From Desulfobacterales bacterium (lineage in GTDB: Bacteria; Desulfobacterota; Desulfobacteria; Desulfobacterales; JAHEIW01): a stretch of DNA of 54,219 nucleotides. Of this stretch, positions 17,408-40,271 are shown piece by piece (the stretch's first letter is position 1; every line of letters starts with the position of its first letter). A program made the translations under genes and the position numbers. The notes beneath the pieces are model-generated. The model saw nothing but the letters and a program-made list of their open reading frames with translations, was not told the DNA's origin and did no database searches. The stretch spans positions 5,798,489 through 5,852,707 of the forward strand of contig CP070746.1 in assembly GCA_020348305.1 (NCBI GenBank). Reading direction: 5' to 3'.

Positions 17408-17646
17408 TGCTTTAACTAATATTATAGAGAAATATTCTAAAAAAAATTACCGCACCGTCTTGATTACCTAAATTTAAATTTCAAAAAGCAGTATAAATTA
17501 AACGAAAGGTAAGGGACCATGATTTGGACAAGAAGAGTTGCTTAAATAATAGAAGCCAAACCGGGATGAAATTCTTTAAATCTTGCCGGAAAATTACATC
17601 CAATAATCCGGCTCGCAGAAAAACCAGCCTGATGATCCAGAATACT
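17408..17646. other. Spacer between kinase and polymerase genes with a possible small hydrophobic reading frame
   Basis: A minus-strand frame ends at 17481 and runs back into the kinase gene. Its part beyond the kinase stop encodes a hydrophobic, aromatic segment (VWLLLFKQLFLSKSWSL). The only ATG lies 83 bases inside the kinase gene and lacks a ribosome site. It may be a remnant of a further gene or a small membrane peptide. I do not call a CDS. Confidence 0.3.
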
Positions 17647-19851
17647 TTACCGATGAATTTTGGATTTGTCGATTTTCTTAAATAGCGATTTGATATTATA
17701 TTCTTTATTGGATTTTGATTCGTGACCATAATAATAGGAGTGATATCTATAATATTCAGGCCCTTCTTCTGATTTTACATTGTTTAAAATCACGCCAACC
17801 AACTTGGCATTCACATTTTTAAGGTTCGATTTGACACGTTTCAATACCCCACGACCGATTTTGCCCACTTTGTAAACTAAAAACACACCGTCTACCAACG
17901 TCGCAATTTCAGAAGCATCTGCTACCGGTAAGATAGGAGGCGCATCAATAAAAATGAAATGATAATCCTGTTCGACTTTCTTCAAAAAATCTCCAAAGCG
18001 TGTAGAGCTTAATATTTCAGATGGGTTGGGGGGCTTCGTTCCGGCAGTAATAATATGAAGGTTATCCATGCCCGGATTTATGAGAATATTATCGATGCCA
18101 AAATCGCCCAGCATGACATCGGAGATCGTATTACATATTTCCTTCCATTGATAGTTTCCCAGGACATAGTCTGTGAGTCCCGGGCTTTCAGCCAACCCAA
18201 AGGTTTTATGGACGAGTGGTTTGCGCAAATCGGCGTCGATCAATAATACTTTATTTCCGCCCTGCGCCATAGTAAGCGCCAAATTGACAACGTTCAAGGT
18301 TTTACCTTCCTGAAGGAAGGAACTCGTGATTAAAAATACTTTGCCTTTTGTTTCCAGTCGCAAAAATTGCAGGTTGGTCCTTAAGGCCCGAAATGCTTCC
18401 GCCCCCATAGATTCTGGCTTAAAATGAGTCACAAGATCCCGCATTCTTGTTCTTGCCGGATCTCTTCGCTCCGTTCGCTCCTTCCTTTTATCATCATCTT
18501 GCAAAAAGGGGATAACGCCCAGCACCGGCACCTCTAACAGCTCTTCCACATCCTCAATGGTGCCCATTGAGGTATCAAACACTTCCACCAAAAAAGCAAA
18601 AACCAACCCAACAACAAATCCCATGGCAATTCCGGTGGTGATAATCATCAATTTGGAAGGGACATTATAAGGTTGGGTGGAGGGCACAGCCGGTTTGACA
18701 ATGGACACCTCTTCTACTTTACTGGATTCCTGGATCAATGTCTCCTGATACTTTTCCTTTAATTGGGAATACAGCGATGCCTGCAAATCAACTTCTCTTT
18801 GCAGACGGACCAGCTGCAGCGCTTTTTCGGGTAGACGCTGATTTTCTTCACGTAAACGGCCGATCTTTTCCAATAAATCTTTTTCACGGGCTTTATACGT
18901 TCTCAAGAGAGAATTGAGTTCTTTTTTCGTTTCCTGAATCACGGCCTGTATCTGGTCATCGATCTCTCTCACTTGAGGATGTTTCTCTGTTAGATTTATA
19001 AGTAATGTTCGCCGTTTTAAAAATAGTTCACTGAGCTTCGTCTTCAATCCATAAACCGGGGAATCCGGAGGAGCAGAAAGGAACATCCGTTTGAATTTTC
19101 CGGTCGTACCTTTTTTACCGTTATCAAGGTTACGCAATTGAGAAGCAACCTCTTCACTTTGGACTTTTACTTTCTCGTACTCTGTTTCAACGGCATTGAG
19201 CCTGTCCAACGTATTTTGAGTTTGCGCATCCAAGGAAATTAATGCATAACCTTCTTTAAAAGCCTGGAGTTCTCGTTCGGCGCCCTTCAAATTAACGGAA
19301 GTCAATCGCAGTTGTTCTTCAATAAAATTCTTGGTTTCAAATGTCTTTTTGTTTTTCTCATGGATGTTATATTCTCGATAAGCTTGCGCAACTGCATTGG
19401 CTGCCATGGTAGCTTCACGCGGATCTTGTGAAACGGCACGTATGTCGATGATATTGGTTCCCTCCTGGTGCTCCGCTTCAACCTTAGATTCCAGGCGCTC
19501 GATGACAGCCAAATACTTTCTGTTGTTTCGAATCGCCTCGGCCGAAAGATCCTTGGGTATCCATTCCAACAGTTTAGCTGCTTTAGCTAAAACCGGAAAA
19601 CTCTTAATAATGTATGCACGGGTTTCCATATTTTCCCATTGAAGCCAATACGGGCCTGTCAAATAAGAGGCCATCTGCGCGGATCTGTCGATTTTAATTG
19701 CTGCAGTGGCTTTATAAAGCGGAACCGGCTCCTTAAATTTGGCGAATCCATAACTACAAATCGCAACCAGCACGACCATAAATATGATCGAGGCTTTTCG
19801 TTTTCGAATAATTCTCCAATAATCTCTGAGATCTACATCGTATTGCGCCAT
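17647..19851 (-). CDS. Polysaccharide co-polymerase / tyrosine autokinase (Wzz + BY-kinase)
   Basis: A 734-residue inner-membrane protein. A Wzz domain starts at residue ~5 (DLRDYWRIIRKRKASIIFMV, first membrane helix). A long periplasmic coiled coil (~150-400) is closed by a Pro-containing second helix (KLMIITTGIAMGFVVGLVFA). A cytosolic BY-kinase follows: Walker A SSFLQEGKTLNVVNLA near 510, Walker A' VLLIDADLRKP, and Walker B FIFIDAPPILPVADA. The C-terminal tail ends in a tyrosine cluster (YYRYHSYYYGHE), the autophosphorylation site in this family. Such proteins set polysaccharide chain length and gate export with the outer-membrane SLBB protein, encoded directly upstream (47 bases apart). 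The Walker A reads QEGKT where GEGKS/T is usual, a mild variation. Confidence 0.93.
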   Translation of the reverse strand: MAQYDVDLRDYWRIIRKRKASIIFMVVLVAICSYGFAKFKEPVPLYKATAAIKIDRSAQMASYLTGPYWLQWENMETRAYIIKSFPVLAKAAKLLEWIPKDLSAEAIRNNRKYLAVIERLESKVEAEHQEGTNIIDIRAVSQDPREATMAANAVAQAYREYNIHEKNKKTFETKNFIEEQLRLTSVNLKGAERELQAFKEGYALISLDAQTQNTLDRLNAVETEYEKVKVQSEEVASQLRNLDNGKKGTTGKFKRMFLSAPPDSPVYGLKTKLSELFLKRRTLLINLTEKHPQVREIDDQIQAVIQETKKELNSLLRTYKAREKDLLEKIGRLREENQRLPEKALQLVRLQREVDLQASLYSQLKEKYQETLIQESSKVEEVSIVKPAVPSTQPYNVPSKLMIITTGIAMGFVVGLVFAFLVEVFDTSMGTIEDVEELLEVPVLGVIPFLQDDDKRKERTERRDPARTRMRDLVTHFKPESMGAEAFRALRTNLQFLRLETKGKVFLITSSFLQEGKTLNVVNLALTMAQGGNKVLLIDADLRKPLVHKTFGLAESPGLTDYVLGNYQWKEICNTISDVMLGDFGIDNILINPGMDNLHIITAGTKPPNPSEILSSTRFGDFLKKVEQDYHFIFIDAPPILPVADASEIATLVDGVFLVYKVGKIGRGVLKRVKSNLKNVNAKLVGVILNNVKSEEGPEYYRYHSYYYGHESKSNKEYNIKSLFKKIDKSKIHR

Positions 19852-19898
19852 AGCTGAAACCTATTTAGAATATTCACACAGTCGAATCATCACTTGCG

Positions 19899-22148
19899 TC
19901 AATCATTACTTTTCACCACATCAACAGCGTCATCCCAATCTTTGACGACACGGGCCGGCCAAATTAGCAGTTCAAGCAGCGGTCGGATACGTTTTGCAAA
20001 AAGGTTGATTTCTCCGAAACCGCTTCGCGGAACATAGACCAGATCACCGCTGGCAAGGATAATATTTTGCGATTGATCGCCCTCTTCAATCAAACGGTCA
20101 AGATTTGTTGAGATGATTTCGGGCCGAGTGGGATCGCCCCGGACGACTTTTGTGTTCCTTGTGGCAGCAAAAGCAGTCGCTCCACCGGCTTCGGCGATGG
20201 CATCAAACAATCGCATTTCTGAACTGATATACTCGTATGCTCCCGGTTTTTCCACTTCGCCGAATACATAAATTCGATTTCCCTTTTTATCAAAAGTAGG
20301 TACAAACACGACGTCACCATCATCTATAATAAAATCCTGTTCAGGATCTCCCTTATGTATGGCGGCAAAGAGATCTAAAGAAATGGACCGACCGTTTTTT
20401 CGGCGAATACTGATATTTTTTAAATCAGCATCCTTCGAAGGTCCTCCCGCTTGGGTGAGCACTTCCAACAGGGTGGTCTTGCCGCTAAGTTTGTATTTAC
20501 CAGGTCCTGTACCCGCATAGCCCTTATAGATGATAGCCCCGAGCAAGGTTACAACTTTACTGTTATATTCTTTTACCACCACATCGATGCGTGGTTTTCT
20601 AACATATTCTCCAATTTTTTTGGTAAGCCGATCATCCAATTGTGAGGGTGTAAGGCCATCGATCGGGAGGTCTTCCACGAAACCAAAGGAGATTTTTCCA
20701 TCCTGTCGAACCAATATCTCCTCTTTCTTCGGTTCGTTACCCTTCCAGGAAGTAATTTCAAGAACATCCCCCGGTCCAATCTTATATTCCGCCCTTCCGT
20801 TGACAGTAGCAAATACATTATTTTCTAAGGGTGCTTCCAAGACAGCCAGTCGATTTTTGTCGGCAATTTGTTCAATATCCATGTTTTTTGGAGTGAGTGA
20901 AGCGTCCGGTTTACCCTGCCAAATTTTAATCCCCTCTCCGGAACTGGCTGCACAAATTTCCGGAGAACCATCGTTATTCAAATCGGCAAGCACCATTTCA
21001 TAATATGTTCCGGTAGATGGAAATTGCCCTTCGACAAGTTTCCACAAATTTTTTCCTAAATTCTGCCAGGCTAAAATGCCCCTCTGATTAATCGAGCTTG
21101 CTACTAGATCAACAGCACCATCGCCGTCCAAGTCAACGGGGAGTGCCGTCCAGAAACTATCCCCGGCTATTCTGGTATATTCTTTTTCGACGGCTTTGTA
21201 TGTTTGAGGTTGCGCTTGGACCCTACGCTTCAAATGGTCTGCAGGACTCTTTATTCTTTGGAATCGGCCTTTTCCATCTCCCAGAAAAATCTTGGTATTG
21301 GCCCTGTAAGCGCCCACCAATATATCCAAATTCTCGTCCGCATCCACATCTCCGATTTTAATACCGTAGAAACTGCCTTGACTTATCTGGTAGGCAGCCG
21401 ACCAATGGCCCGCGCCATCTCCCAGCCATACACGCAAGGCACCATAGGTACCCCAGCCCGCACCCACTAAATCCAACTTCCGATCACCATTGAAATCGGC
21501 CAGCGCCACATCCATGTATTTTCCGGTAACGGTGGGTCCGGACTCTTTAAGCCAGCCGCCTTTTCCATCCCCCAGCCAAATCTGAATACCAGCCTGGGTT
21601 TCGGATGTGGAATTTGCGGCAATGATATCAAAGTGTCCGTCTCCGTTTACATCTCCGGTTTTCACGCTCTGGTAGGTATTAATTTCTATGGGACCTTTTG
21701 TATTTTTCCATTTGCGATCGGATTGGTTGATCCATACTCGGATTCCGGAGGTTTCTCTTTGGAGCGTAAAAACAATATCGTTCAGTCCGTCTTCATTGAA
21801 ATCTGCCACCGCAACTGAGCGCACATCGCCTTTAACCGGCAGAATTTGCGGTTCGGAAATACCGCCCCGTCCATCGCCGTAATTGATAGTAACCATTCCG
21901 GGGGTTGAGGCCCCGCCGACGACATCCAGATAACCATCATTATCCAAATCCTCTACGGCCACCGCATAAAAGTTGCCGGCTGATGCCAAACCATCAGACT
22001 TGGATTTGATCACCGGATTTTCATAACGTTTGTCTTGGGCACATCCGAAGGCAATCAGTGCGACGCAGCCTGCGAAAAGCAATCCGTTTTTTAAAAGCGG
22101 TATACTCTTTCGCTTTTTTGCCTGTTCAATAATATGGTGCATTTTCAT
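19899..22148 (-). CDS. Polysaccharide export lipoprotein (Wza-like, SLBB) fused to N-terminal VCBS/FG-GAP repeats
   Basis: A 749-residue lipoprotein: the N-terminal hydrophobic stretch ends VALIAFGCAQD, with a lipobox-like Cys near residue 37. Residues ~55-410 carry at least seven FG-GAP/VCBS units with calcium-binding DxDxDG loops, for example AVEDLDNDGYLDVVGG, ADFNEDGLNDIVF and DLDGDGAVDLVASS. From ~450 a polysaccharide-export domain begins (YKIGPGDVLEITSWKG), followed by two SLBB-type domains (VVTLLGAIIYKGYAG and IYVFGEVEKPGAYEY). The C-terminal half is what Wza/GfcE-like outer-membrane export channels look like. The seven-bladed propeller in front is not part of standard Wza and probably faces the periplasm or surface. 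The gene overlaps the upstream ATPase gene by 4 bases. Confidence 0.9.
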   Translation of the reverse strand: MKMHHIIEQAKKRKSIPLLKNGLLFAGCVALIAFGCAQDKRYENPVIKSKSDGLASAGNFYAVAVEDLDNDGYLDVVGGASTPGMVTINYGDGRGGISEPQILPVKGDVRSVAVADFNEDGLNDIVFTLQRETSGIRVWINQSDRKWKNTKGPIEINTYQSVKTGDVNGDGHFDIIAANSTSETQAGIQIWLGDGKGGWLKESGPTVTGKYMDVALADFNGDRKLDLVGAGWGTYGALRVWLGDGAGHWSAAYQISQGSFYGIKIGDVDADENLDILVGAYRANTKIFLGDGKGRFQRIKSPADHLKRRVQAQPQTYKAVEKEYTRIAGDSFWTALPVDLDGDGAVDLVASSINQRGILAWQNLGKNLWKLVEGQFPSTGTYYEMVLADLNNDGSPEICAASSGEGIKIWQGKPDASLTPKNMDIEQIADKNRLAVLEAPLENNVFATVNGRAEYKIGPGDVLEITSWKGNEPKKEEILVRQDGKISFGFVEDLPIDGLTPSQLDDRLTKKIGEYVRKPRIDVVVKEYNSKVVTLLGAIIYKGYAGTGPGKYKLSGKTTLLEVLTQAGGPSKDADLKNISIRRKNGRSISLDLFAAIHKGDPEQDFIIDDGDVVFVPTFDKKGNRIYVFGEVEKPGAYEYISSEMRLFDAIAEAGGATAFAATRNTKVVRGDPTRPEIISTNLDRLIEEGDQSQNIILASGDLVYVPRSGFGEINLFAKRIRPLLELLIWPARVVKDWDDAVDVVKSND

Positions 22149-22951
22149 GATCCTAAATCCTCGATGGCATCTTCTACAATTTTGCTATCAATAATTTTGG
22201 CCTTGCGCATCAATCCGATGAGCAAGCACCGATCACACAAATTGTTTGTCCGCAACGGAATACCGCCGGAGTATTCGTAGATGAGACCAATCGCTTCTTT
22301 AGAAAATATTCCCCGGGAAGCGCCGGCACTTTTTAATCGAAATAGAACATAGCGTAAAGTGTCTTTACTATCTAAGGGATCCAGATTGAACATTATGCTG
22401 ATCCTTTCCTTCAGCGGTTGGAGTTCCGTAATATTTTTTAGCAACGGCGGTTGGCCGAGTAAAATCAGAGTAATCAGAAATTCATCATCATGCTGCATGT
22501 TGAGCAGCATTCTTAACTCATCCAAGGTGGCCCGATTCCCAATCACATGGGCTTCATCGACGGCCAGCACCGTGCTGACTCCTTGCTGGGCATTCTGAAA
22601 TAGTAATTTTTGGAGTCGATCGAGCAGCACCGTTTTAGAGCCATTCGTGTTTTCCAAATTATCACCTAATTTTATTAAAATGGCTTTGATGAGATCGGTC
22701 GGTTGTAAGGCGGGATTTGATATGGTCTTGAGCTGAAATAAATCTTTATTGAGATAGCATTTTAAGGCTTTGGTAATGGTGGTTTTTCCGCAGCCAACCT
22801 CACCCGTGAGCATGGCAACCCCTTTGTGGTACTCGATGGCATACAATAACCGGCGCAGGGCTTCCTCATGCTGAGGTGATCTGAAAAAAATCTCACGACT
22901 CGGTACATTGCCAAAAGGTGCTTTTGCAAGACCCCAATGCTCTAAATACAT
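22145..22951 (-). CDS. ExeA/GspA-like AAA ATPase of exopolysaccharide loci
   Basis: A 268-residue cytosolic AAA-type ATPase. It opens MYLEHWGLAKAPFGNVPS, the hallmark start of the ExeA family. Walker A is GEVGCGKTT at residues 50-58, Walker B is VLAVDEAHVI, and a sensor-type RI motif occurs at LKERISIMFNL. Similar genes accompany exosortase/PEP-CTERM exopolysaccharide operons, where their role is unproven but may be assembly of the export machinery. Here it lacks the C-terminal peptidoglycan-binding domain of true ExeA. GAGGG precedes the ATG. It overlaps the export lipoprotein gene by ATGA, implying coupled translation. Confidence 0.9.
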   Translation of the reverse strand: MYLEHWGLAKAPFGNVPSREIFFRSPQHEEALRRLLYAIEYHKGVAMLTGEVGCGKTTITKALKCYLNKDLFQLKTISNPALQPTDLIKAILIKLGDNLENTNGSKTVLLDRLQKLLFQNAQQGVSTVLAVDEAHVIGNRATLDELRMLLNMQHDDEFLITLILLGQPPLLKNITELQPLKERISIMFNLDPLDSKDTLRYVLFRLKSAGASRGIFSKEAIGLIYEYSGGIPLRTNNLCDRCLLIGLMRKAKIIDSKIVEDAIEDLGS

Positions 22952-23035
22952 AATAACACCCTCTTCCTATGCATGGATGAGGTTACTTTCTAATGCAAGC
23001 AAAATAATTTAGACATATTATTATAAACAAATATG

Positions 23036-24148
23036 TCAGGTTTTCGAAAGTTGCCGAATTTCATCATCCGTAACCGAATCAACAATATGCAAAAGCGGAT
23101 CTTCCGGTAAGGCAACAATTCTGTCTGTTAATACCTTCTGTTTCTGAGAGTCGTAAACGATCCGAACTTTCGGCCGCATGGGCTGGTCCGGATAGGTTTC
23201 AATTACCTTACCAATAGCCTCGGAGTTTAGTCGAACATAGCTATCCATCGGAAAAAGCGTAAAGGTGCTCAAAAGCGCTCTAAGGTGTTTCCGTTGAAAA
23301 CGATTTTTGCTGGTGTTTATGATTTTTGTTACAGCTGCGAAAGGCGTTAATTTTTCGCGTTGAGGCCTGGAATGGATCAAAGTTTCATAGACGTCCAATA
23401 GTCCAAGGATCTGTGCATACTCGTGAATCTCGTCGGCTGTTAAACCTCTGGGGTATCCTGTCCCGTCAATCCTTTCATAAACCTGGGCGGCACATTCGGT
23501 TAGGTACGCATATTCATGACCAAACGATTGTAAGATCTTATTGCTATAATTCGGACGTTGCCTAAAAATTTTGATTTCGTCTTTACTGAGCCTTTTTTGT
23601 TTGTAGATGATATGATCCGGAATTGCCGCCGTGCCAATATCATGGAGCAGGCCGGCGAGTCCGATTTCAATTTGCTGATCCAAACTGAAGCTAAGGTATT
23701 TCGTCAGCTTAATCCCATAAATGGCAACATTGACGCCATGATGGGAAACAAATTTATTACGGTCATCCGCATGCAAGGACATGATGAATAACGGATCCGG
23801 AGAAGGATTCACTTCGGCGATTTCGCGAATAATCTGAAGCCCTTTTTCAAGGGAAAATTTTTGGCGATTTCTGACTGCACCCAGTACCTGATTCAAATAA
23901 TCCAACGCTTCATGATAGAGAAACTTTCTGCTTTCATCAGGGGCTGATCGAAGGCTTGCTTTGCCGTTCTTTTCCAGGTCTGTGGCCAGCTCGACAAAAC
24001 TTAATTTTGATTTTTTCTTGACGCCTTGATGGCCTACTCGTTGAGGATCTACTTTAATATTTCTGAACTGCACCACGCCGAAAGCTCCTTTGATTCCCAT
24101 CTCTGGTATATCTTTTTTTTGAAGATTCCTTTTTATCCAAGGTTCCAT
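23036..24148 (-). CDS. HD-GYP-type protein with degenerate metal-binding residues
   Basis: A ~370-residue protein with an HD-GYP fold in its second half. The landmarks are FVSHHGVNVAIYG, GLLHDIGTAAIPDHII (the HD pair near residue 170), YERIDGTGYPRGL (GYP motif) and GLLDVYETL. Intact HD-GYP enzymes hydrolyse cyclic di-GMP using two or three metals. Here the His of the RxHP motif is replaced (FRQRPNYSNKIL), and the HHE before DGxGYP reads VYE, so three expected ligands are missing. The protein may bind rather than cleave c-di-GMP. The N-terminal ~120 residues are unassigned. Starts are uncertain: the ATG used here lies inside the 3' end of the upstream transferase gene, and an ATG at 24100 is an alternative. 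Its place in the operon suggests control of glycan export. Confidence 0.85.
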   Translation of the reverse strand: MEPWIKRNLQKKDIPEMGIKGAFGVVQFRNIKVDPQRVGHQGVKKKSKLSFVELATDLEKNGKASLRSAPDESRKFLYHEALDYLNQVLGAVRNRQKFSLEKGLQIIREIAEVNPSPDPLFIMSLHADDRNKFVSHHGVNVAIYGIKLTKYLSFSLDQQIEIGLAGLLHDIGTAAIPDHIIYKQKRLSKDEIKIFRQRPNYSNKILQSFGHEYAYLTECAAQVYERIDGTGYPRGLTADEIHEYAQILGLLDVYETLIHSRPQREKLTPFAAVTKIINTSKNRFQRKHLRALLSTFTLFPMDSYVRLNSEAIGKVIETYPDQPMRPKVRIVYDSQKQKVLTDRIVALPEDPLLHIVDSVTDDEIRQLSKT

Positions 24149-25373
24149 TCGCAAAACGACCGCGTCTTTCCAGTATGGTGATCAACACAACAATAATCGA
24201 TGCTTGGATGATTAACAACAGCGCATTACCAGAGCTTGCATTGCGAAGTACGACGGCACTGGTACCCAGACAAAAACACAGAAGATAAATAAACAACACG
24301 CTTTTCTTTTTTCCACCTAGTGCGTTTGCCAAACGATGATGCAGGTGGTCCCGGCCCACGTATTCGATCCATTGTTTGAAATTCAGCACTTTTCCGGTCA
24401 GAATCCGTTCAACGGTAATATGCACCATGTCGAAGATGAAGATCCAAAAAATCAGAATAGGAGATACCAGGGCCACGACCGGCTTACCTTCGGCCCAATC
24501 TCCATAAACCGCAATGCACGCCAACACAAAACCGATAACCATACTGCCGGCATCTCCCAGAAAAATCCCGGCACTCCCGTTAGGCCTGAAATTAAACGGC
24601 AAAAATCCAAGACAACTCCCCATCATAGCCACCGCAACCCATCCTAAAAAGGGCTGGTTCGTCTGAAAGGCCACCACACCCAAGAAAAACGAAACCAGTG
24701 CGCCCAAGCCCGCAGCCAAACCATCCATACCATCAAAAAAGTTCATGGCATTTGTGATGCCGATGATCCAAACCACGGTCAAAACGGCATTGCCCATCTG
24801 AGCGATGATTCCTAAATTATCCGGAATAACCCGCAATATGATTCCGCTGCAGATGACCAGCAGCGTAGATAGGACTTGGGTAATGAGTTTTATGCCTGCT
24901 GAAATCTCTTTGATGTCATCGATCACGCCAACACCAAATAATATTATCGCTGCAATCAGTATCGCGCCAAGCTCCATGGAAAAAATACCGTTGATTAAAA
25001 GTGCAACCAAAAAGCCGATGAATACAGCCGCCCCACCAAGCAGCGGGGTGGCATCCTGATGAAGTTTTCTTCCATGCGGACGATCAAGTATGCCGAATTT
25101 GCGGGCTACCCAGGAAAAAAAAGGGCTTAGGCAAAATGACAATGCTAAAGAAACCGACATTACATGTGCCCATCGCCATCCGGAGGTTGCAAAAAATTTA
25201 CACGTCACAGGCATCAAAAGACCACAGGTCAAGAGAACCATCAGTAGATATAGGGACCAGTTCAGACCGAGAAGCCCTGAGGGTTTTTCTGCCCTTTCAT
25301 CCAAATGGTCGATAACAATCGAAATCGGCGTTTTCTCTGACACCAAATTGTTTGCCACTGTTGTGTGTTTCAT
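24054..25373 (-). CDS. MraY/WecA-family undecaprenyl-phosphate sugar-1-phosphate transferase
   Basis: A 439-residue multi-pass membrane protein with ~11 helices. Family motifs are present: GRKLHQDATPLLGGAAVF (cytosolic loop 1), GVIDDIKEISAGIK (DD motif), AMNFFDGMDGLAAGLGALV (catalytic NxxNxxDGxDGL type), FLGDAGSM and RDHLHHRLANAL (His loop of polyprenyl-phosphate GlcNAc transferases). The family attaches a sugar-1-phosphate to undecaprenyl phosphate and starts glycan assembly. It is the first gene of the exopolysaccharide operon read leftward. The ~35-residue hydrophilic tail (KKESSKKRYTRDGNQ) overlaps the start of the HD-GYP gene, an unusually long overlap. An extra hydrophobic N-terminal helix (LNWSLYLLMVLLTCGLLM) precedes the core. 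Confidence 0.92.
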   Translation of the reverse strand: MKHTTVANNLVSEKTPISIVIDHLDERAEKPSGLLGLNWSLYLLMVLLTCGLLMPVTCKFFATSGWRWAHVMSVSLALSFCLSPFFSWVARKFGILDRPHGRKLHQDATPLLGGAAVFIGFLVALLINGIFSMELGAILIAAIILFGVGVIDDIKEISAGIKLITQVLSTLLVICSGIILRVIPDNLGIIAQMGNAVLTVVWIIGITNAMNFFDGMDGLAAGLGALVSFFLGVVAFQTNQPFLGWVAVAMMGSCLGFLPFNFRPNGSAGIFLGDAGSMVIGFVLACIAVYGDWAEGKPVVALVSPILIFWIFIFDMVHITVERILTGKVLNFKQWIEYVGRDHLHHRLANALGGKKKSVLFIYLLCFCLGTSAVVLRNASSGNALLLIIQASIIVVLITILERRGRFANGTLDKKESSKKRYTRDGNQRSFRRGAVQKY

Positions 25374-32599: not shown

Positions 32600-34450
32600 T
32601 TATTTGCTGCTATTTGAAAATATAGGCTCTTTGTCCGAAATAGATTGCTGATAAGTTGCTATCGACTGGTAGTAATCATTGGCGTTTAAAAGAGATTGAT
32701 GGGTCCCGCCGTCAACGAGTCGATTTCCATTTATCAAAAGAATTCTATCCATCTGCCGGATAGTCGAGAGACGGTGTGTGGCGACAAATAATGTTTTTTG
32801 TCGAACCGCATCGGGAATCGCCTCAAAGATTGACTTTTCCATTTGGCTGTCCAAAGCGGCGGTGGGCTCATCCAAGATCAGTATGTCCGGATCCTTGATC
32901 AAAGCCCGGGCGATCGCAATCCGTTGTTTTTGCCCTTCAGATAGCTTAACGCCCTTTTCCCCGATATTCGTCTCATAGCCCTTCGGCAGGGTTTTGATAA
33001 CGTCATGCATACCGGCAACGCGCGCAGCTTTTTCGACCATGTTCGTATCCGCATCAGGTATTCCGTAGCGGAGATTCTCGATGATGGTACCGTCCAGAAG
33101 CCGCGGTTGTTGGGAAACATATCCGATGCGCTGCCGCAATGAACTTACATCGCAATCTGAAGCCGGCAGACCATCAAAATAAATCTCTCCTGCCGTGGGG
33201 CGGTAAAAGCGTAAGATTATACTTATCAGGGTTGTCTTGCCTACACCGCTGCCCCCAACAATTGCAACCTTTTCACCGGGTTTGATATGAAGACTAACAT
33301 CTTTGAGCACAGGTTCGCAGCCGTTGTAGGCAAAAGAAACATCCTTGAATTCAATTTCACCAATCAACCTTTCAACCTTACAACCGGAACCCATGTTTTC
33401 TTCGGGAATGATGTCAAAAAGCGCCGACACACGCTCCAGGGCTGCCAGGGCCTTCTGAAGTTGCAGGTTTGCCGAAGCCAAAAATTGTGCCGGACCAAAC
33501 ACATAGGCCAAATAGGCTTGATAAGCCAGTAGGGATCCCAACGTCCACTGACCTTTAATCACCCAAAAAGCGCCGACTGCTAAAACGACGGCACGGGCCA
33601 TTCCGGGCACGGAATTGATCGCTAAATTAGCCAATGAGACCACGCTGGTTTGTTCCAACGAGACTTGAAAAACCTTCTTCAACGCATTCATCAATCCTTT
33701 TTGGGTTCGATCCTCCGTAGCGTAAGCTTTGATCAACGGTGCTTCAGAAAGTGTCTCCTGGAAACGGCTTGAGATCTTCGCTTTTTGCTCCATGCTCTGA
33801 TGGCTTAAGATGTGAATTTTGCCGGAAAAAAAGCGAATACAGTATCCAATACCCGGCAAGAGGATTAAAACAGTAATCGATAGCCGCCACTCCAAATAAA
33901 ACAATAGGCCGATGCCGCCAGCAAAGCGTATGATATTGCTGATGACATGTATCATTGTGCAGGAAAAAAACCAGCGGATTCCCTCGACATCTGTTGTAAG
34001 ACGTGACATCAAGTAACCGGTCTGATTGTCGTCGAAAAATGACTTGGGAAAACGCAGCACACGGGCAATCAGATCCTGATGAATGTCAAGGGTGATGCGC
34101 CGCTCAAAGCGGGCAAAATAAAAGTCCTCTAAAACGCGCAAAAGTTTTTCGGCTGCTAAAAAGCCGATCAGCAGGACAATAGCGCTGGCCAGAAGTTCTA
34201 GTTGGCGTCCCAAGATGACCTCGTCGATCAGATAGCGGGTGATCAAAGGCGGCGGAAAACCGCATAGGGAAGCCAAAATAATAAGCCAAAAACCGACCAG
34301 TCCCTTGCGCCAGTGGCGCTGGTAGTAAGGTTGGAGTTTTTTCAGATTGCCCCTGGTACTGCCATAGCCGCCGGTACCCACGATACGGTCTGCGGGCAGT
34401 TTGCGCGCAAGGCCTCGTTTTAAATATGTAAACCAGCTATTTATCACCAT
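32600..34450 (-). CDS. ABC exporter (fused permease and ATPase), last gene of the RiPP cassette
   Basis: A 616-residue half-transporter. The N-terminal ~350 residues carry six membrane helices of the ABC_membrane type. The ATPase follows: Walker A GGSGVGKTT, Q-loop YVSQQPRLLDG, signature LSEGQKQRIAIARAL, Walker B ILILDEPTAALDS and H-loop ATHRLS. No C39 peptidase domain precedes the membrane domain, so it cannot cleave leaders itself. That fits the separate S26-type peptidase three genes upstream. The ATG follows the nucleotidyltransferase stop directly (TAGATG), so translation is coupled. Family members export lipids, drugs or peptides. Context points to the mature cassette peptide as cargo, which is inference. 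Confidence 0.9.
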   Translation of the reverse strand: MVINSWFTYLKRGLARKLPADRIVGTGGYGSTRGNLKKLQPYYQRHWRKGLVGFWLIILASLCGFPPPLITRYLIDEVILGRQLELLASAIVLLIGFLAAEKLLRVLEDFYFARFERRITLDIHQDLIARVLRFPKSFFDDNQTGYLMSRLTTDVEGIRWFFSCTMIHVISNIIRFAGGIGLLFYLEWRLSITVLILLPGIGYCIRFFSGKIHILSHQSMEQKAKISSRFQETLSEAPLIKAYATEDRTQKGLMNALKKVFQVSLEQTSVVSLANLAINSVPGMARAVVLAVGAFWVIKGQWTLGSLLAYQAYLAYVFGPAQFLASANLQLQKALAALERVSALFDIIPEENMGSGCKVERLIGEIEFKDVSFAYNGCEPVLKDVSLHIKPGEKVAIVGGSGVGKTTLISIILRFYRPTAGEIYFDGLPASDCDVSSLRQRIGYVSQQPRLLDGTIIENLRYGIPDADTNMVEKAARVAGMHDVIKTLPKGYETNIGEKGVKLSEGQKQRIAIARALIKDPDILILDEPTAALDSQMEKSIFEAIPDAVRQKTLFVATHRLSTIRQMDRILLINGNRLVDGGTHQSLLNANDYYQSIATYQQSISDKEPIFSNSSK

Positions 34451-35722
34451 CTATACCTGTTGTCCGGATGCACGAATCCGTTTCATGACAAGTTCCACAA
34501 ACCATCTACGCCAGCGGCGGACGTAGGAGAGGGGAAGCAGCCAATTGCGCGATGGCGGGTAGCACATGCGCACCATCTGCGGATGCGGAAAAAGAAGACG
34601 AAACAAAGAGCTCGCCATCGCCGATACTCCCCCAGGTCGTTTCAGGTAGCGCCGCAGCAAAACGCCTGCCCAATGCGACCTGCTTGAGTGGGACCACGTC
34701 ATTCGTTCGTCCGCTGTGGGTCGGGGCCAGCTGTTGAAGTTTCTAAATCCATCTGGCAGCCGCAGCCCGGTCCACACCAGAGCCATTTTCAGACAGTGTT
34801 CCACAGCCAGGCGGGCCCTCCAGGTAACGCTCCTATCTGGCAACACCTCCCAATCTTCGGGTATACGAAGGCCGCGGGCGAGCAAGGCAATGTCGTAAAT
34901 CCAGACAAGGCGAATATCTCGCCGATGAATCAGGGCTAAGTGAATGGCCGCATGAATGAGGGCATCCACGGGGTGCATCGTCTCAAAAGCCAGGTCAGAT
35001 TTCTCAACCGTGCTGGCTCGCCGGAAAAGGTCCTCCAACCTACCCCCACCACAGTCTTTGAAAAAAGGGTGCAGCTCCCAATGCACCCAGTGGAGATCTA
35101 CAGGGAGGTTGTCTTTCGGGTGCTTTTTGTGAACGTATTCCTCCTCCCGAAAAAAATCTCTGGTGACCTCGAACCTCTTGCCCAGGCAACCGTAACCCAG
35201 ATCTTCGAGGATTTTTCGGGCCTTCCTAGTCTGCTTCGGAAGCACCAGCAGATCCAAGTCACTGCCGGGCCTCAATGCAGGATCGGGATAAACAGAAAAG
35301 CCCAGAGCAGGGCCCCTCAACACCAAGAATCGAACCCCTTCCGTTTTAAACGCATCCAGAATTTCTCCGAGTTGCCTCTCCAGACGCAGAGAGCGAACAC
35401 GGCTTTCATGAAACGTCCTCCTTAACTGGCGGTTAACTTCTCCCGGTGGAAGGCATTCCTGCGGCAAGGAACCGATGCGCCAATAAAGCAGCGGGGCGAT
35501 CCAATGGGGCTTTAGCAGAGCAAAGAAATCATGCCATTGATCAGCAGTTGCCGCCGGAGCTATAGGAATCTCATTGCTTAGCAGTGACCCAATATAGGTT
35601 AGGATATTGGATGGGAGTTTGAAAAGCGCATTCCTCGGCTCACCGCAAAGCTTGAAATCGGGATGATTGCCGTACCACAGCTCTTTCAAGGATGAGGTTT
35701 TCAAGGAGATCTGGTCATTCAT
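34451..35722 (-). CDS. PF14907-type nucleotidyltransferase family protein in RiPP cassette
   Basis: A 423-residue protein with the minimal nucleotidyltransferase signature: VLRGPALGFSVYP followed by RPGSDLDLLVLPKQTRKA, where SDLDLLV holds the metal-binding Asp pair. It then has a third carboxylate region (PVDLHWVHWEL) and a helical C-terminal half. This is the layout of the family encoded in lasso-peptide clusters such as PadeN beside an HPr-kinase-like enzyme. In such clusters it is linked to modification of the phosphorylated peptide, though the chemistry is not fully settled. The start MNDQISLK is chosen because its ATG overlaps the peptidase stop (ATGA). A longer frame would add 18 residues inside the upstream gene. 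Its partner here would be the ScmC-like HprK homologue two genes upstream. Confidence 0.82.
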   Translation of the reverse strand: MNDQISLKTSSLKELWYGNHPDFKLCGEPRNALFKLPSNILTYIGSLLSNEIPIAPAATADQWHDFFALLKPHWIAPLLYWRIGSLPQECLPPGEVNRQLRRTFHESRVRSLRLERQLGEILDAFKTEGVRFLVLRGPALGFSVYPDPALRPGSDLDLLVLPKQTRKARKILEDLGYGCLGKRFEVTRDFFREEEYVHKKHPKDNLPVDLHWVHWELHPFFKDCGGGRLEDLFRRASTVEKSDLAFETMHPVDALIHAAIHLALIHRRDIRLVWIYDIALLARGLRIPEDWEVLPDRSVTWRARLAVEHCLKMALVWTGLRLPDGFRNFNSWPRPTADERMTWSHSSRSHWAGVLLRRYLKRPGGVSAMASSLFRLLFPHPQMVRMCYPPSRNWLLPLSYVRRWRRWFVELVMKRIRASGQQV

Positions 35723-36423
35723 GAGACACTCATTTTTTTCTGTGTGACAACGGTCGACTGATTCCGATCTAGCCACACTTTGGACGGATTGTCCGGCAGA
35801 TCCGCCTCATCCACAAACAGCCGAAAAGGAAACTGAATATTCCATTGACATCGGCGGCCATCGTATCGACCCACGACTCTCCTGCCTACCAGCAATTGAA
35901 GCTTAACCTGTCCGGCGATTTTAAAAATAGCGACACGGGGGCTGAAGTGCAAAGGTAACAGGCCCGATACCAAGCCCCGGCAACCGGCACCGCGATAAAG
36001 GGGATGTAACACAGGTCTAACTGCACGAACCAGGACACGTCGCCATCGATTTTTACGGGCCAATAGCCGCCCGACCCAACCTCCGGCGATTTTGCGATAC
36101 TGCCGGCCGCGCCATGCCGCCACTACCTGGCCAAGGATGTGGCCTGGGTCCAGAAGCCATGGATCGCAGGCGTTGCTGTTTTCACCACGCGTGCGAACGC
36201 CCCGTGGCGTTACGCAAACGACACGATGCACCACAGGCGTTTTTTGCCCGGGCGGTAAGCAAAATATTACGTCTCCGACCTGTATGCGCCTCTCGATATA
36301 GGGCCTGACCTGCAGTAGGTCCTGCTCCCCGAGAATTGGTTTCATGCTGGACCCAGCGAGCCCGCAGCAGAAAACACCCTTGGTTTTCTCATCTATTAGG
36401 TTAAAAAATGGTCCTATGTCCAT
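35719..36423 (-). CDS. S26-type (signal-peptidase-like) serine peptidase of RiPP cassette
   Basis: A 234-residue protein whose first ~110 residues match the S24/S26 catalytic core. AGSSMKPIL holds the nucleophile Ser, GDVIFCLPPG is the box before the general base, and PVVHRVVCVTP puts His where bacterial LepB has Lys. Ser/His usage is that of the archaeal/eukaryotic (S26B) branch. RTRGENSNACDPWLLDPGHI then matches the GDN-like box. No N-terminal membrane anchor is seen, unlike LepB. The remaining ~120 residues are Arg-rich and unassigned. In a cassette lacking a C39 or S9 peptidase, this is the best candidate for leader removal from the Cys/Gly-rich precursor. It starts 47 bases after the ScmC-like gene and overlaps the next gene by 4. 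Confidence 0.78.
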   Translation of the reverse strand: MDIGPFFNLIDEKTKGVFCCGLAGSSMKPILGEQDLLQVRPYIERRIQVGDVIFCLPPGQKTPVVHRVVCVTPRGVRTRGENSNACDPWLLDPGHILGQVVAAWRGRQYRKIAGGWVGRLLARKNRWRRVLVRAVRPVLHPLYRGAGCRGLVSGLLPLHFSPRVAIFKIAGQVKLQLLVGRRVVGRYDGRRCQWNIQFPFRLFVDEADLPDNPSKVWLDRNQSTVVTQKKMSVS

Positions 36424-36470
36424 ATCATTGGGCTTTGTATACGCGAGTCATGAACCTCACTGCCCGATTT

Positions 36471-37448
36471 TCATTGATTCTTGCAGCAGCAAGCGATCGC
36501 TCGCTCGATCTCATGCCAGAAGCAGCCGTTGAGGCTTAACTTCAGACGATAGACGGGAACAGCTTCGACTAACGCGCAGACGTTATTGAATCGTTCCGTA
36601 CGGAGGACGCGGAGTTCATCTTTCCTCAGTCCATGGGACATTGCCAAATAAGCCTGTTCTGCCGACTCAGTGAGCAGACCGATTGTCTTTCCGGCACCCA
36701 TGCTTTCCACGCGGTCTATGTTCGCCTTGTTCAAGAAGAAGATACCACTCAGGGGTACAGCATATTGCACATCCCAGCTACCGCCTGAGCCGCCAGATAA
36801 AAAAGCACTCCAGGTGGGCCAGGGGTGGGCCCAGTATACCCCCTGCTCGTCACGTATAATCAGGGTTGCGTCATCACACAGTGAGCGCCACGGATATGGA
36901 AGTCGTCGACTTGCGGTTGTCTTACCCCCTCCTCCCGGACCAGCCAAAATCACGCCGTATCCGTTCTTTTCTGCCAGAGCACCGTGCAGGAGAAATCCAC
37001 CTCGCGGCTGAGCATCGGCGCCAATCACCAGCGAAAGTTGCATGAGCTGCAAGACAAACAGGTCACTGCTTGTGACAGGGCTTAAGAAACAGGACATGAC
37101 GCCTGTACGAGCCTGCCGTAAGGCAAAACATAGGGCTGTTAATGGCGCTTTGTCACAGGCATATGAAGGGTACGATTGGGGACTGCCGGACAGTATGTTT
37201 GGTAACCGGCAATGCCCAAGTGATTTTCCGTCGTGGCTGTCCACACGCACAATCAATCGACGATCGGAACGGCAGAGCACTCTGAGTTGCATCGCCTGCC
37301 TGAGACCCGAGACGATGGCGGCTGCCTGCTCATCTGCGGCTGCAAAGCTCCACGTGGTCCCATCTGCCAGACCCAGACCAATGTCCGCTTCCGAACCGGA
37401 GCAAATTTCACTGCTCATTGGCATCCCCAGCTGCTGGACAACATTCAC
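36471..37448 (-). CDS. scmC: ScmC-like SynChlorMet cassette protein (HPr-kinase-related P-loop)
   Basis: A 325-residue protein with an HprK-like core. A His strand (GGFLLHGALAEKN) leads into the P-loop GVILAGPGGGGKTTASRRLP (GPGGGGKT at ~170-177), then SLCDDATLI, which matches the paired Asp of HprK. The later segment PLSGIFFLNK is the strand after the cap. HprK-type enzymes phosphorylate Ser/Thr, and relatives in RiPP clusters phosphorylate the peptide. The GTG start is chosen because GGAGG lies 8 bases upstream and the start falls 4 bases after the precursor stop. A frame open to 37700 exists but its extra 84 codons overlap the precursor gene and read as low-complexity Pro/Gly text. Assignment to ScmC is from cassette context plus fold. 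It was not verified against a profile. Confidence 0.8.
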   Translation of the reverse strand: MNVVQQLGMPMSSEICSGSEADIGLGLADGTTWSFAAADEQAAAIVSGLRQAMQLRVLCRSDRRLIVRVDSHDGKSLGHCRLPNILSGSPQSYPSYACDKAPLTALCFALRQARTGVMSCFLSPVTSSDLFVLQLMQLSLVIGADAQPRGGFLLHGALAEKNGYGVILAGPGGGGKTTASRRLPYPWRSLCDDATLIIRDEQGVYWAHPWPTWSAFLSGGSGGSWDVQYAVPLSGIFFLNKANIDRVESMGAGKTIGLLTESAEQAYLAMSHGLRKDELRVLRTERFNNVCALVEAVPVYRLKLSLNGCFWHEIERAIACCCKNQ

Positions 37449-37452
37449 CCGA

Positions 37453-37743
37453 TCATCCTCCGGGACCGGACGGACCGTTATTACATTCATTAGCGGCGCC
37501 ACTTCCGGTATCGCACTCCCGCCCGATGGCGCCGACCCCGGTCCTGCACCTTGGTCCACTGGCGCTTGTCCCTGTTCGGCAATTAGCATGTGCGGCACTG
37601 CCATCATTACACGACTGACCAGCCGCTGTGGCTGTTTGGCCGAGAGGGATCGCAACCGGGGCCTCATAGATCCGCTTTTCATTGGCCAACAAGGCGCCAT
37701 GTTCGTTAAATATTTTTGTGCGCGTGTCTTTCTGAATCGTCAT
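37453..37743 (-). CDS. Candidate RiPP precursor: 96-residue Cys/Gly-rich peptide with five CxxG units
   Basis: The peptide begins MTIQKDTRTKIFNEHG. A charged leader (~1-42, including NEKRIYEAPV) is followed by a core rich in Gly, Ala, Ser, Thr and Asn. Cys residues occur at 45, 55, 66, 77 and 87, spaced 10-11, each opening a unit: CNDG, CRTG, CRTG, CDTG and CNNG. It ends PSGPGG. Gene signals are strong. GGAGG lies 7 bases before the ATG, the ATG overlaps the radical SAM stop (TGATG), and the next gene starts 4 bases after its stop with its own GGAGG. Leader plus repeating core next to a PqqD homologue and two SPASM radical SAM enzymes is the classic RiPP layout. The modification is not known; thioether or C-C crosslinks at Cys or within CxxG units are possible. 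Confidence 0.82.
   Translation of the reverse strand: MTIQKDTRTKIFNEHGALLANEKRIYEAPVAIPLGQTATAAGQSCNDGSAAHANCRTGTSASGPRCRTGVGAIGRECDTGSGAANECNNGPSGPGG
37457..37461 (-). promoter_or_regulatory. Ribosome binding site GGAGG deciding the GTG start of the ScmC-like gene
   Basis: GGAGG lies 8 bases before GTG and spans the last two Gly codons of the precursor. It supports starting the HprK-related gene after the precursor rather than at the upstream ATGs at 37490 or 37700. Confidence 0.7.
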
Positions 37744-38870
37744 CAAACAACCTCCACAAGGTCATTCCACGCTAGTTGTGATACGTTGCTTTTCAAATTC
37801 TCCAAACGTGTCTTCGGAAACAGGCCGGCCTCCTGTGCCTGCTCACAGAACCAGAAGGGTGCCCAGATGTTTCTGCTCCGGTAATAGTTCTGGGCAATAC
37901 AGCTCCCCAGGCAACGACCTTTCATGACACATCCGGCACAGATGCCCTCAAAACGATGGGGAAGTCCCTCGCGAAGTTCCCGCAGCACCGGTGTGTGGTT
38001 CCAGACCTGCGCCAGATGATCCGTGGCGGCGTGGCCGAAGACAAGATCCGACACGGTCTCACCTATTCCACACAGGGCGTAGGATCCATCAGCCAGAACG
38101 CCGAGTATATCCAGAATTCCGCAAACCCCGCAGCCGTTCCCATGGGTGCCGAACATGTTGCCTAAAGGACGGAATGCCGGTGGGTGACCGTAGTAAAGCC
38201 GTAACGGTGTCGTATCTGCAAGAGCAGTCTCCGCCCATCTTCCTAAATCAACAAGCTCTTCAATGGTCAGTGCCTCTCCGCTCTCGTGCAGCCGTTGTCC
38301 TCTAGCCGTTGGCTGGACAAGGTTAAACTTGACCGATCCGGCACCCAGTGACTCAGCCAGACGGACGAGAGCCTCCATCTGATCTTTGTTATGCCGCATG
38401 ATCGTCATGATGAGTTGAGGATTGAGTCCGGTCTGCACCAGATTACGGATACCCCCAAGCGCGGCGTCGAAGCACCCCGGTACACCTCGAACCCACTCGT
38501 GGGTTTCCGCATCCGTACCGTCCAGGCTGACGGAGACAAAGGGATTTTTGCAGGCAGCCATTTTCGCGGTTAGCTCAGGCGTACACAGCACGCCATTGGT
38601 CTCAACCGTGAGACGGAGGTCTTCTGTCCGAATGAACTCCAACATCTCCTGAATTTGCGGATGCAGAAGCGGCTCGCCCCCCGTCAATTTGACCCCGCTC
38701 AGTCCGAGCGGTTTTGCCTGTTGAATGATCGATCGAAAAAGTTCGAGGTCCAGCGCAGGATGCGATCGCGCCTCGGTCCGGTAGCTGGGCGCAATCCAGC
38801 AGTGGCGACACCGCAGGTTGCAGTCGGCGGATAGGTAGAAATAGATTTGTTTTAACGGACCACTCAACAC
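37743..38870 (-). CDS. scmF: Radical SAM/SPASM protein, ScmF-like
   Basis: A ~375-residue radical SAM enzyme. From the GTG start, the SAM/[4Fe-4S] motif is CNLRCRHC at 17-24, preceded by IYFYLSAD. LTGGEPLLHP supplies the GGEP motif and VSVSLDGTD a later core strand. A SPASM region with auxiliary-cluster Cys residues lies at GNGCGVCGILDIL, ALCGIG, GICAGCVMKGRCLGSCIAQN and FWFCEQA. SPASM enzymes make C-C, C-S or C-O crosslinks in peptides. The GTG is preferred because AGAGGA lies ~10 bases upstream and it falls at the ScmE stop. A TTG 57 bases earlier is possible but lacks a ribosome site. The E/F labels follow gene order and N-terminal style and should be checked against TIGR04250/TIGR04251. 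Confidence 0.85.
   Translation of the reverse strand: MLSGPLKQIYFYLSADCNLRCRHCWIAPSYRTEARSHPALDLELFRSIIQQAKPLGLSGVKLTGGEPLLHPQIQEMLEFIRTEDLRLTVETNGVLCTPELTAKMAACKNPFVSVSLDGTDAETHEWVRGVPGCFDAALGGIRNLVQTGLNPQLIMTIMRHNKDQMEALVRLAESLGAGSVKFNLVQPTARGQRLHESGEALTIEELVDLGRWAETALADTTPLRLYYGHPPAFRPLGNMFGTHGNGCGVCGILDILGVLADGSYALCGIGETVSDLVFGHAATDHLAQVWNHTPVLRELREGLPHRFEGICAGCVMKGRCLGSCIAQNYYRSRNIWAPFWFCEQAQEAGLFPKTRLENLKSNVSQLAWNDLVEVV
37751..37755 (-). promoter_or_regulatory. Ribosome binding site GGAGG of the candidate precursor gene
   Basis: GGAGG lies 7 bases before the ATG of the small Cys/Gly-rich gene and inside the 3' end of the radical SAM gene. It decides the start of the precursor and shows that the small frame is translated in its own right. 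Confidence 0.8.
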
Positions 38871-39982
38871 GCCAACAGTTCCTCTTCCGGCAATCTTCCT
38901 CCCTCCTCCAGGAATCGTCTCAGACAAGCGTCGGGACTTGGATGATTCTCTTCACCGAGGAGGGTATATGCAAGCGCCGGACAGTTGCCGGTGCAATAGG
39001 GGATGTAATCGCAGCCCTGGCAAAATTCAAAATCACTCAAGGCAATATCCCTGCGCTCCCTGATACGCCTGAGTTCAGCATGGTTCTGCCAGACTTCCCG
39101 CAGATCGTCCCGGTTAATCCGCCCCAGCTCGATATGGCTCATTTGCTGGCAGGGAACCATGACGCCATCGGCTCGCACAGCTAGCGTGTTCAATGGCCCC
39201 CCGCACCCTGTCAGATACCCCCGTCCCGGAATGTTGGGTCGCCCTTCCCTGCGGGCTTCCTCCATCTCCATCCAGATCTTACCTTCGGCCAGCGGGCCCG
39301 CCGTTGCGCTGATGCGCCCATTGTATTTTTTTCTGAGTCTCAGAAGGGTCTTCATCGCAAGTGCACGCTCTTCCATCGTGAGCTGCACCTGCTCGGAATG
39401 CTGCCGGCAGAGACCCATAAACGAAGCGGCGTTGGTCGAAAAACTGTGTAGACCGACCTCTTCCAAAAGCAGCCTGGCAACTCCTTCAAGATCCTTTACA
39501 TTTCTCCGATGGATCGTGACCCGAACTGAAACCGAAACACCGTGTTTACTGAGAGACATGATTCCGTCCATCGTGCGTTCAAAATTTCCATTGCCCCGGC
39601 AGGCGTCGTGGGTGGCCGGCATTGAGCCATCGATAGAGACCTGAACTCCGTCACAGCGGCCGGTTTCAGCAACAAAGGCTGCCATTTCATCGGTGATCAA
39701 GGTTCCATTACTCAAGATGGTGAATCGCATCCGGTTGCGGACGATCCCATGGATGAGTTGCCTCAAATCTTGCCGGCAAATGGGCTCTCCACCCTCAAGT
39801 ATTACCTGCATGACGGCGCAGTCACTTAACTCTTCGAAAAACCGGAGCCATTCTTCGGTGGCAAGATCTTGATCGACATCTCCGGCACTACCAAAATGAC
39901 TGCAATACGCACACCGCAGATTACAGCGGCTGGTGATCGCCAGATCCACCGATCTTGGAGTACGGATGACTTTCATGCTCAC
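38864..39982 (-). CDS. scmE: Radical SAM/SPASM protein, ScmE-like
   Basis: A 372-residue radical SAM enzyme. The SAM-cluster motif CNLRCAYC sits at 20-27 after RTPRSVDLAITSR. VILEGGEPICRQDL is the GGEP motif and VQVSIDGSM a core strand. The SPASM region carries Cys at LTGCGGPLNTLAV, VPCQQMSH, FCQGCDYIPYCTGNCPA and DACLRR, enough for two auxiliary [4Fe-4S] clusters. The N-terminus is too short for a separate RRE domain, so it should depend on the PqqD-like protein for leader recognition. GTG is taken as start: GGAAGGA lies just upstream, one base after the scmD stop. An ATG two codons later is equivalent. It shares only fold-level similarity with the ScmF-like enzyme, so the pair probably performs different steps. 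Confidence 0.85.
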   Translation of the reverse strand: MSMKVIRTPRSVDLAITSRCNLRCAYCSHFGSAGDVDQDLATEEWLRFFEELSDCAVMQVILEGGEPICRQDLRQLIHGIVRNRMRFTILSNGTLITDEMAAFVAETGRCDGVQVSIDGSMPATHDACRGNGNFERTMDGIMSLSKHGVSVSVRVTIHRRNVKDLEGVARLLLEEVGLHSFSTNAASFMGLCRQHSEQVQLTMEERALAMKTLLRLRKKYNGRISATAGPLAEGKIWMEMEEARREGRPNIPGRGYLTGCGGPLNTLAVRADGVMVPCQQMSHIELGRINRDDLREVWQNHAELRRIRERRDIALSDFEFCQGCDYIPYCTGNCPALAYTLLGEENHPSPDACLRRFLEEGGRLPEEELLAC

Positions 39983-39983
39983 T

Positions 39984-40271
39984 TCAATCCTTCCGAATCT
40001 CGTATCCGACTAAACCTTGTTCACTCAGGTTCAGAATGAAGTCGTTTAAATGTTGCTCCGCCTCTTTAGGGACGTCTTCGCAGTTCGCTTGAAGCGTGTT
40101 TAAGATGTCTTCAACGGTGCGGTTCCCGTCCAGACATTTCCATACGAACACGCCGGTTGGATTGAGCCCGAAGGCATTGCCCGTATCAGGATCGAAGAGA
40201 ACGGCCCAGTCATCGAACTCTTCCCTCAGCACCACCAAAGGATTGGCGATGGGCATATCGTTTTCCGGCAT
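39984..40271 (-). CDS. scmD: PqqD-family RiPP recognition protein, ScmD-like
   Basis: A 95-residue PqqD/RRE protein. Typical strands and helices are LREEFDDWAVLFDPDTG, AFGLNPTGVFVWKCLDG (the N-x-x-G-x-x-x-W/L-x-x-L-D-G hallmark), RTVEDILNTLQANCEDV and a long C-terminal helix. PqqD proteins bind the leader peptide and deliver it to the radical SAM enzymes. It is the first gene of the cassette. The start MPENDMPI is chosen because AAGGAG lies 9 bases upstream. A longer frame adds 22 residues without support. Stop and next start are one base apart, so translation of the whole cassette appears coupled from here. Confidence 0.88.
   Translation of the reverse strand: MPENDMPIANPLVVLREEFDDWAVLFDPDTGNAFGLNPTGVFVWKCLDGNRTVEDILNTLQANCEDVPKEAEQHLNDFILNLSEQGLVGYEIRKD

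Follow-up and report, generated by a model that had tools for sequence, protein, structure and literature searches.

A SynChlorMet operon of a Desulfobacterales bacterium as a probable radical SAM peptide pathway on an LPP-like chassis

We examined a 54,219-nucleotide stretch of a Desulfobacterales bacterium genome (assembly GCA_020348305.1, contig CP070746.1, positions 5,798,489 to 5,852,707; hereafter the window, whose numbering is used throughout) that carries a SynChlorMet (scm) gene cassette, a candidate pathway for a ribosomally synthesized and post-translationally modified peptide (RiPP). Eight genes occupy positions 32600-40271 on the minus strand in the order ScmD, ScmE, ScmF, precursor, ScmC, S26-like peptidase, PF14907 protein and ABC exporter (Table 1), and both this arrangement and the tight joins, described as 1-base gaps, overlaps and short gaps, are as an earlier reading of the letters without database searches (the sequence-only reading) had given them. 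ScmD, preceded by a Shine-Dalgarno-like AGAAGGAG ahead of its ATG, is separated from ScmE by one base (ScmD stop ending at 39984, ScmE GTG at 39982), and the ScmF stop and ScmA start have one base in common (TGATG, 37743). The ScmA stop at 37453 falls inside the likely ScmC gene (ATG at 37490), so that the two overlap; ScmC is followed by a gap of 47 bases, the S26 and PF14907 genes overlap in ATGA at 35722, and the end of the PF14907 gene (34451) directly abuts the start of the ABC gene (34450). For ScmC (37700), PF14907 (35776) and ScmF (38927), the true start is probably downstream of the one called by the ORF finder. The eight genes appear to form one operon. A promoter scan gave 10 sites against 8.4 in shuffled sequence, which is no excess, and terminator-like sites numbered 17 against 10.5 in shuffles, the majority of them within genes.

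Table 1. Genes of the scm operon, with window coordinates and model matches
Product	Position	Strand	Description	Models and scores
ScmD	39984..40271	-	Discrete RiPP recognition element (PqqD/lasso-B1-like), putative leader holder	TIGR04248, 124 bits (cut-off 100); PF05402, 64 bits
ScmE	38864..39982	-	Radical SAM/SPASM	TIGR04250, 636 bits (NCBIfam cut-off 400)
ScmF	37743..38927	-	Second radical SAM/SPASM; start probably downstream of 38927	TIGR04251, 615 bits (NCBIfam cut-off 400)
ScmA-like precursor	37453..37743	-	96 aa, from sequence	TIGR04252, 23.2 bits (below cut-off 35)
ScmC	36471..37490	-	HprK-like, putative precursor kinase	TIGR04249, 184 bits (NCBIfam cut-off 125)
S26B-like (SEC11/SipW-type) serine peptidase	35719..36423	-	Putative leader peptidase	TIGR02228, 35 bits (sub-threshold)
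PF14907 nucleotidyltransferase-fold protein	34451..35722	-	Putative modifier of phosphorylated peptide	PF14907, 159 bits (above Pfam cut-off)
MsbA-like ABC exporter	32600..34450	-	No C39 peptidase domain	PF00664 (ABC_membrane) and PF00005 (ABC_tran), above Pfam cut-offs

The cassette differs in composition from its surroundings. G+C content is approximately 52-57% at 34-40 kb and roughly 39-44% on both flanks, with sharp edges near the operon ends, a contrast that suggests the cassette was probably gained as a single unit. This genome has a single strong scmE and a single PF14907 gene, both in the operon, and a search for a second ScmA copy elsewhere in the genome gave nothing above noise.

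ScmC, ScmD, ScmE and ScmF, the last two being radical S-adenosylmethionine (SAM) enzymes, all score above the cut-offs of their SynChlorMet models. The precursor falls short of the ScmA cut-off, with the whole model (1-49) covered at the expected position, and its identity is backed by homologues in 32 other loci. When the operon proteins were scanned against NCBIfam, the S26B-like peptidase, the PF14907 protein and the exporter matched no SCM model. A literature search by cassette name and model numbers, in which few subscription papers were covered, found no paper, and a search for RiPPs combining radical SAM enzymes with HprK and signal peptidase returned nothing relevant.

The sequence-only reading had held that the peptidase, nucleotidyltransferase and exporter extend a four-gene core. 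We gathered relatives of ScmE by searching 395 genomes that belong to the same phylum as the window and by scanning genome contigs, the named records of which come from Desulfobacterales, Syntrophobacterales, Aminicenantes, Chlorobiaceae, Omnitrophota and a Planctomycetia bin, and searched all open reading frames (ORFs) of the scm loci with profiles made from the window proteins. Locus counts refer to the 30 scm loci outside the window that span 11 kb or more; because several loci are short contigs or metagenome bins, a missing gene counts for little. ScmC is present in 26 of the 30 loci and a precursor in 24, the S26-like peptidase in 21, PF14907 in 19 and a strong ABC match in 13. At least one extra gene accompanies the core in 25 loci, at least two in 17 and all three in 11, which disposes of the possibility, raised with the original proposal, that they never occur together with the core.

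Placement statistics point the same way. Among 23 scm genomes, 16 have PF14907 no more than approximately 12 kb from scmE, where 0.18 would be expected by chance (Poisson 4e-26), and this copy is usually the sole full-length one in its genome. In a 198-genome sample, PF14907 was found in all 12 genomes with scmE-like matches of at least 200 bits as opposed to 41 of the 186 others (Fisher 5e-8). By profile, 18 of the 23 scm genomes carry the S26-like family, in most cases with a single strong copy that sits in the cassette. Furthermore, ScmC and S26 are fused into one gene at loci L075, L076 and L077 (ScmC first) and L081 (S26 first), with L076 and L077, which belong to one genus, counted as one event, and S26 is fused to PF14907 at L042 and L064. 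The placement statistics and the fusions led us to reject the idea that the three extra genes lie there by chance. The proposed extension of the core is thus supported by co-occurrence, placement and fusions alike, and the extra genes are common companions of scm, though not universal ones; at times they are encoded elsewhere in the genome (L099, L100). When unassigned ORFs were clustered to look for further recurrent cassette genes, most of what emerged was antisense shadow ORFs and exopolysaccharide genes.

Some loci depart from the usual layout. Genome G031 (L099 12733-13282 and L068) has a split cassette, with ScmD-ScmE at 46 kb and, at approximately 371 kb, ScmA, ScmC, S26, ABC and PF14907 in a row behind a radical SAM fragment, as if broken within scmF. 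At L100 (2932-5236), a small satellite locus consists of a recognition element, a Cys-repeat precursor and PF14907 and lacks radical SAM genes; its genome also has a separate scm locus. L102 (1-12117) and L103 (7298-11895) look like diverged sister systems in which radical SAM, recognition element, S26-like and PF14907 genes occur together below scm scores; their more distant radical SAM genes suggest that the combination may extend beyond scm.

The precursor has two parts. In the window, its leader is KRIYEAPVAIPLG..., and its core is composed of five Cys repeats, CNDGSAAHAN, CRTGTSASGPR, CRTGVGAIGRE, CDTGSGAANE and CNNG.... Of the 7306 ORFs in scm loci, 42 match this pattern, versus 2.05 per shuffle, and leader and repeats together are common to 45 ORFs in all. 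The leader motif is [YW]ExPxLxxL, with Tyr or Trp in 45/45, Pro at +3 in 44/45 and Leu at +8 in 36/45; at +5, Leu, Val, Ile, Ala and Phe are commonest. An Ala/Gly-rich stretch follows, and the first Cys usually lies 17-21 residues past the Tyr. Core cysteines, of which a precursor carries from 2 to 14, are most often spaced by 10 residues (100 times), then 11 (56), 9 (19) and 12 (17), and the repeats begin C-x-x-G, Gly occupying C+3 in 44 of the 45 first repeats and in 186 of the 231 later ones (230/276 total). Ser at C+4 is enriched in first repeats, being present in 26 of 45 compared with 35 of 231 later repeats (Fisher 8e-9, kinship of the sequences ignored). Several loci have multiple precursors, the extreme being L049 (5481-12272) with at least six different ScmA and three ScmC genes, some arranged as ScmA-ScmC pairs.

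Ranked by family profile, the lasso protein TbiB1 (5v1u) and LppB (9x8z) stand ahead of PqqD as relatives of ScmD, and the structures of these nearest RiPP recognition elements (RREs), from lasso and linear polyphosphorylated peptide (LPP) pathways, were solved together with their leaders. In LppB, Asn33 and Phe74 hold the leader Pro and Asp70 bonds the Tyr (PMC13381572); the first two align with Asn40 and Phe81 of ScmD, which are near-invariant and invariant, respectively, and the counterpart of Asp70, His77 in the window, is not strictly conserved. The CX3CX2C motif and seven SPASM cysteines are invariant in both ScmE (43 homologues) and ScmF (41 homologues). The nearest solved structure to ScmE is SkfB, a sactipeptide enzyme (9e-20); another match is to structure 5wgg, which contains a radical SAM peptide enzyme.

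Catalytic residues are likewise conserved in the proteins encoded downstream. Few or no ScmC homologues depart from the His, Lys, Asp and Asp that make up a motif essential in the kinases of lasso peptides (PMC9266682); the AF2 model of ScmC (pLDDT 83) matches the PEPCK/HprK fold, and its family profile matches HprK at 1.6e-5. The S26-like protein is sub-threshold in NCBIfam and Pfam, its family profile has SEC11C as best solved relative (3e-16), and its Ser, His and Asp, residue types essential in LppS (PMC13381572), are invariant. DxD and R are invariant in the PF14907 protein, the AF2 model of which (overall pLDDT 71) has a nucleotidyltransferase fold matching MenT1, LnuA and ANT(2''). A C39-peptidase exporter was considered as leader protease and rejected, the exporter having no peptidase domain match in NCBIfam or Pfam.

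The closest parallel is the LPP pathway of Bacillota, reported in 2026, in which lppAKBSDN encode a precursor, HprK-like kinase, RRE, signal peptidase I (SpI)-like leader peptidase, exporter and nucleoside triphosphate (NTP) transferase (PMC13381572). Experiments there established that the kinase places polyphosphate on core Ser3, that the peptidase uses Ser-His-Asp and depends on the RRE, and that the RRE recognizes YxxP; LPP clusters also occur among capsule genes (PMC13381572). The scm operon contains the same core set of RRE, HprK-like kinase, archaeal-type signal peptidase I, NTP transferase and MsbA-like exporter, and shares the YxxP leader and a place near polysaccharide genes. It differs in adding two radical SAM/SPASM enzymes, where the LPP core set has no ring- or crosslink-forming enzyme and yields a linear product, in its Cys-repeat core, and in that the scm hosts seen are not Bacillota; the terms radical SAM and Desulfo were not found in the main text of PMC13381572. 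Because its leader lacks the Phe motif and radical SAM enzymes are expected to act on its core, scm is, by analogy, a pathway that would work as LPP does and yet is not LPP as described in PMC13381572.

Two further families share parts of the cassette. Phosphorylated and glycosylated lasso peptides such as paeninodin and pseudomycoidin (PMC9266682) have a YxxP/WxxP leader, discrete RRE, H-K-D-D kinase, nucleotidyltransferase and exporter, whereas scm has radical SAM enzymes in place of the macrolactam synthetase and B2 protease. A lasso peptide was rejected, since the eight genes encode neither a B2 protease nor an Asn-synthetase-like cyclase; an Asn_synthase gene does lie 13 kb from the operon, among glycosyltransferases. 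With sactipeptides and ranthipeptides (e.g., SKF), scm shares a Cys-containing core and radical SAM enzymes with SPASM-type auxiliary-cluster cysteines, and it differs in its paired enzymes, discrete RRE, kinase and nucleotidyltransferase.

The scm loci display repeated genetic linkage, conserved catalytic residues and a common leader motif, and the anatomy of the operon suggests that it could be complete from biosynthesis to export. Going beyond the sequence-only reading, the lasso/LPP-type leader, the Cys repeats and the LPP parallel point to a likely mechanism, and we consider it probable that scm is a RiPP pathway in which two radical SAM/SPASM enzymes are set on an LPP chassis. Judging from its family and the motif, ScmD would bind [YW]xxPxL of the ScmA leader. 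ScmE and ScmF would act on the tandem C-x-x-G repeats, where the most likely change is the formation of bonds from Cys sulfur to nearby carbons, and ScmC would phosphorylate Ser, probably that following the first C-x-x-G. The S26B-like peptidase is predicted to remove the leader at the small-residue (Ala/Gly) stretch just ahead of the first repeat, the PF14907 protein may put a nucleotide- or sugar-type group on the phosphate, which is the weakest step, and the exporter would carry the product out. The most likely product would be a thioether-crosslinked repeat peptide, with phosphate on a first-repeat Ser and the leader cut off, that is exported.

Other explanations need to be weighed. The three extra genes could belong to an adjoining exopolysaccharide island and stand beside the scm core by accident, given that exopolysaccharide genes flank the operon on both sides and that PF14907 also occurs in scm-less genomes. 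The co-localization reported above excludes this as a general account, and the fusion of S26 with ScmC, the sharp G+C change at the operon edges and the finding that most scm loci carry the extra genes with no exopolysaccharide genes in reach make it very improbable here. It is unlikely, if less remote, that the cassette is sactipeptide- or ranthipeptide-like, with ScmC and PF14907 acting not on the peptide but in regulation or self-protection, through HprK-like sensing and a toxin-like or resistance-like nucleotidyltransferase. ScmC is indeed only distantly HprK-like (20.7 bits to TIGR04352), and the matches of the PF14907 model include MenT toxins and antibiotic adenylyltransferases. However, both types of gene fusion and the repeated ScmA-ScmC pairs inside L049 speak against this reading, and kinases of the ScmC type act on peptides in the LPP and lasso pathways.

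A stronger competitor concerns the radical SAM step itself and would leave the other steps compatible with the proposed pathway. SPASM enzymes catalyze many reaction types, and the change could be epimerization, carbon-carbon linkage or decarboxylation, with the cysteines free or metal-binding. The best PDB match of ScmF is cytosylglucuronate decarboxylase, a non-peptide enzyme, and no conserved acceptor residue beyond Gly, Ser or Ala is seen in the repeats. Against this, the regularly repeated Cys is the one constant reactive residue, and ScmE matches peptide enzymes, SkfB best of all. We regard this variant as a serious possibility that falls somewhat short of even chances. The ScmF match also counts against our overall interpretation of scm as a crosslinking pathway on an LPP chassis, as do several other points. 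The chemistry of the cassette is deduced from its genes, and the precursors were collected by similarity to that of the window, such that their common features are partly selected for. The LPP leader YxxPxVLxHQxIxFETxxS / Px9Fx[T/A] is not kept beyond YxxP, Ala being commonest at the Phe position. The extra genes are missing near scm in L043, L053, L068, L069 and L073. Finally, deletion of LppN had no visible effect (PMC13381572), and the PF14907 step is therefore uncertain even in LPP.

In the window, the operon has XrtA-type exopolysaccharide genes on one side (16-25 kb) and glycosyltransferases on the other (47-53 kb), and Wzc, Wza or XrtA ATPase genes are found in the flanks of 8 of the 30 other scm loci. 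A link to the cell surface is plausible. The first group (16019-25373) is of XrtA/PEP-CTERM type, with Wzy_C, Wzc-like, Wza-like, XrtA-type ATPase, HD domain and WecA-like genes; its Wza-like polysaccharide export protein (19902-22148) has FG-GAP repeats in its N-terminal region, a combination of domains that looks uncommon. Elsewhere in the window, a 2049-residue ORF (8269-14415) had no NCBIfam match at 1e-8.

As far as we found, SynChlorMet previously consisted of gene names without a described pathway. Viewing it as an LPP/lasso-type chassis would assign a testable job to each gene and would indicate the leader motif, the cleavage region and the phosphorylation site. It is conceivable, though doubtful at present, that scm represents a new RiPP class, in which paired radical SAM crosslinking and phosphorylation of a modular repeat peptide are combined with PF14907 capping, which might attach nucleotide or sugar units to the peptide for the surface polysaccharide that the neighboring genes make. 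More broadly, the comparisons indicate that a module of recognition, kinase, peptidase and exporter may be reused with differing core chemistries in several phyla, and precursors with such a range of core cysteine numbers would offer a natural series for iterative radical SAM modification.

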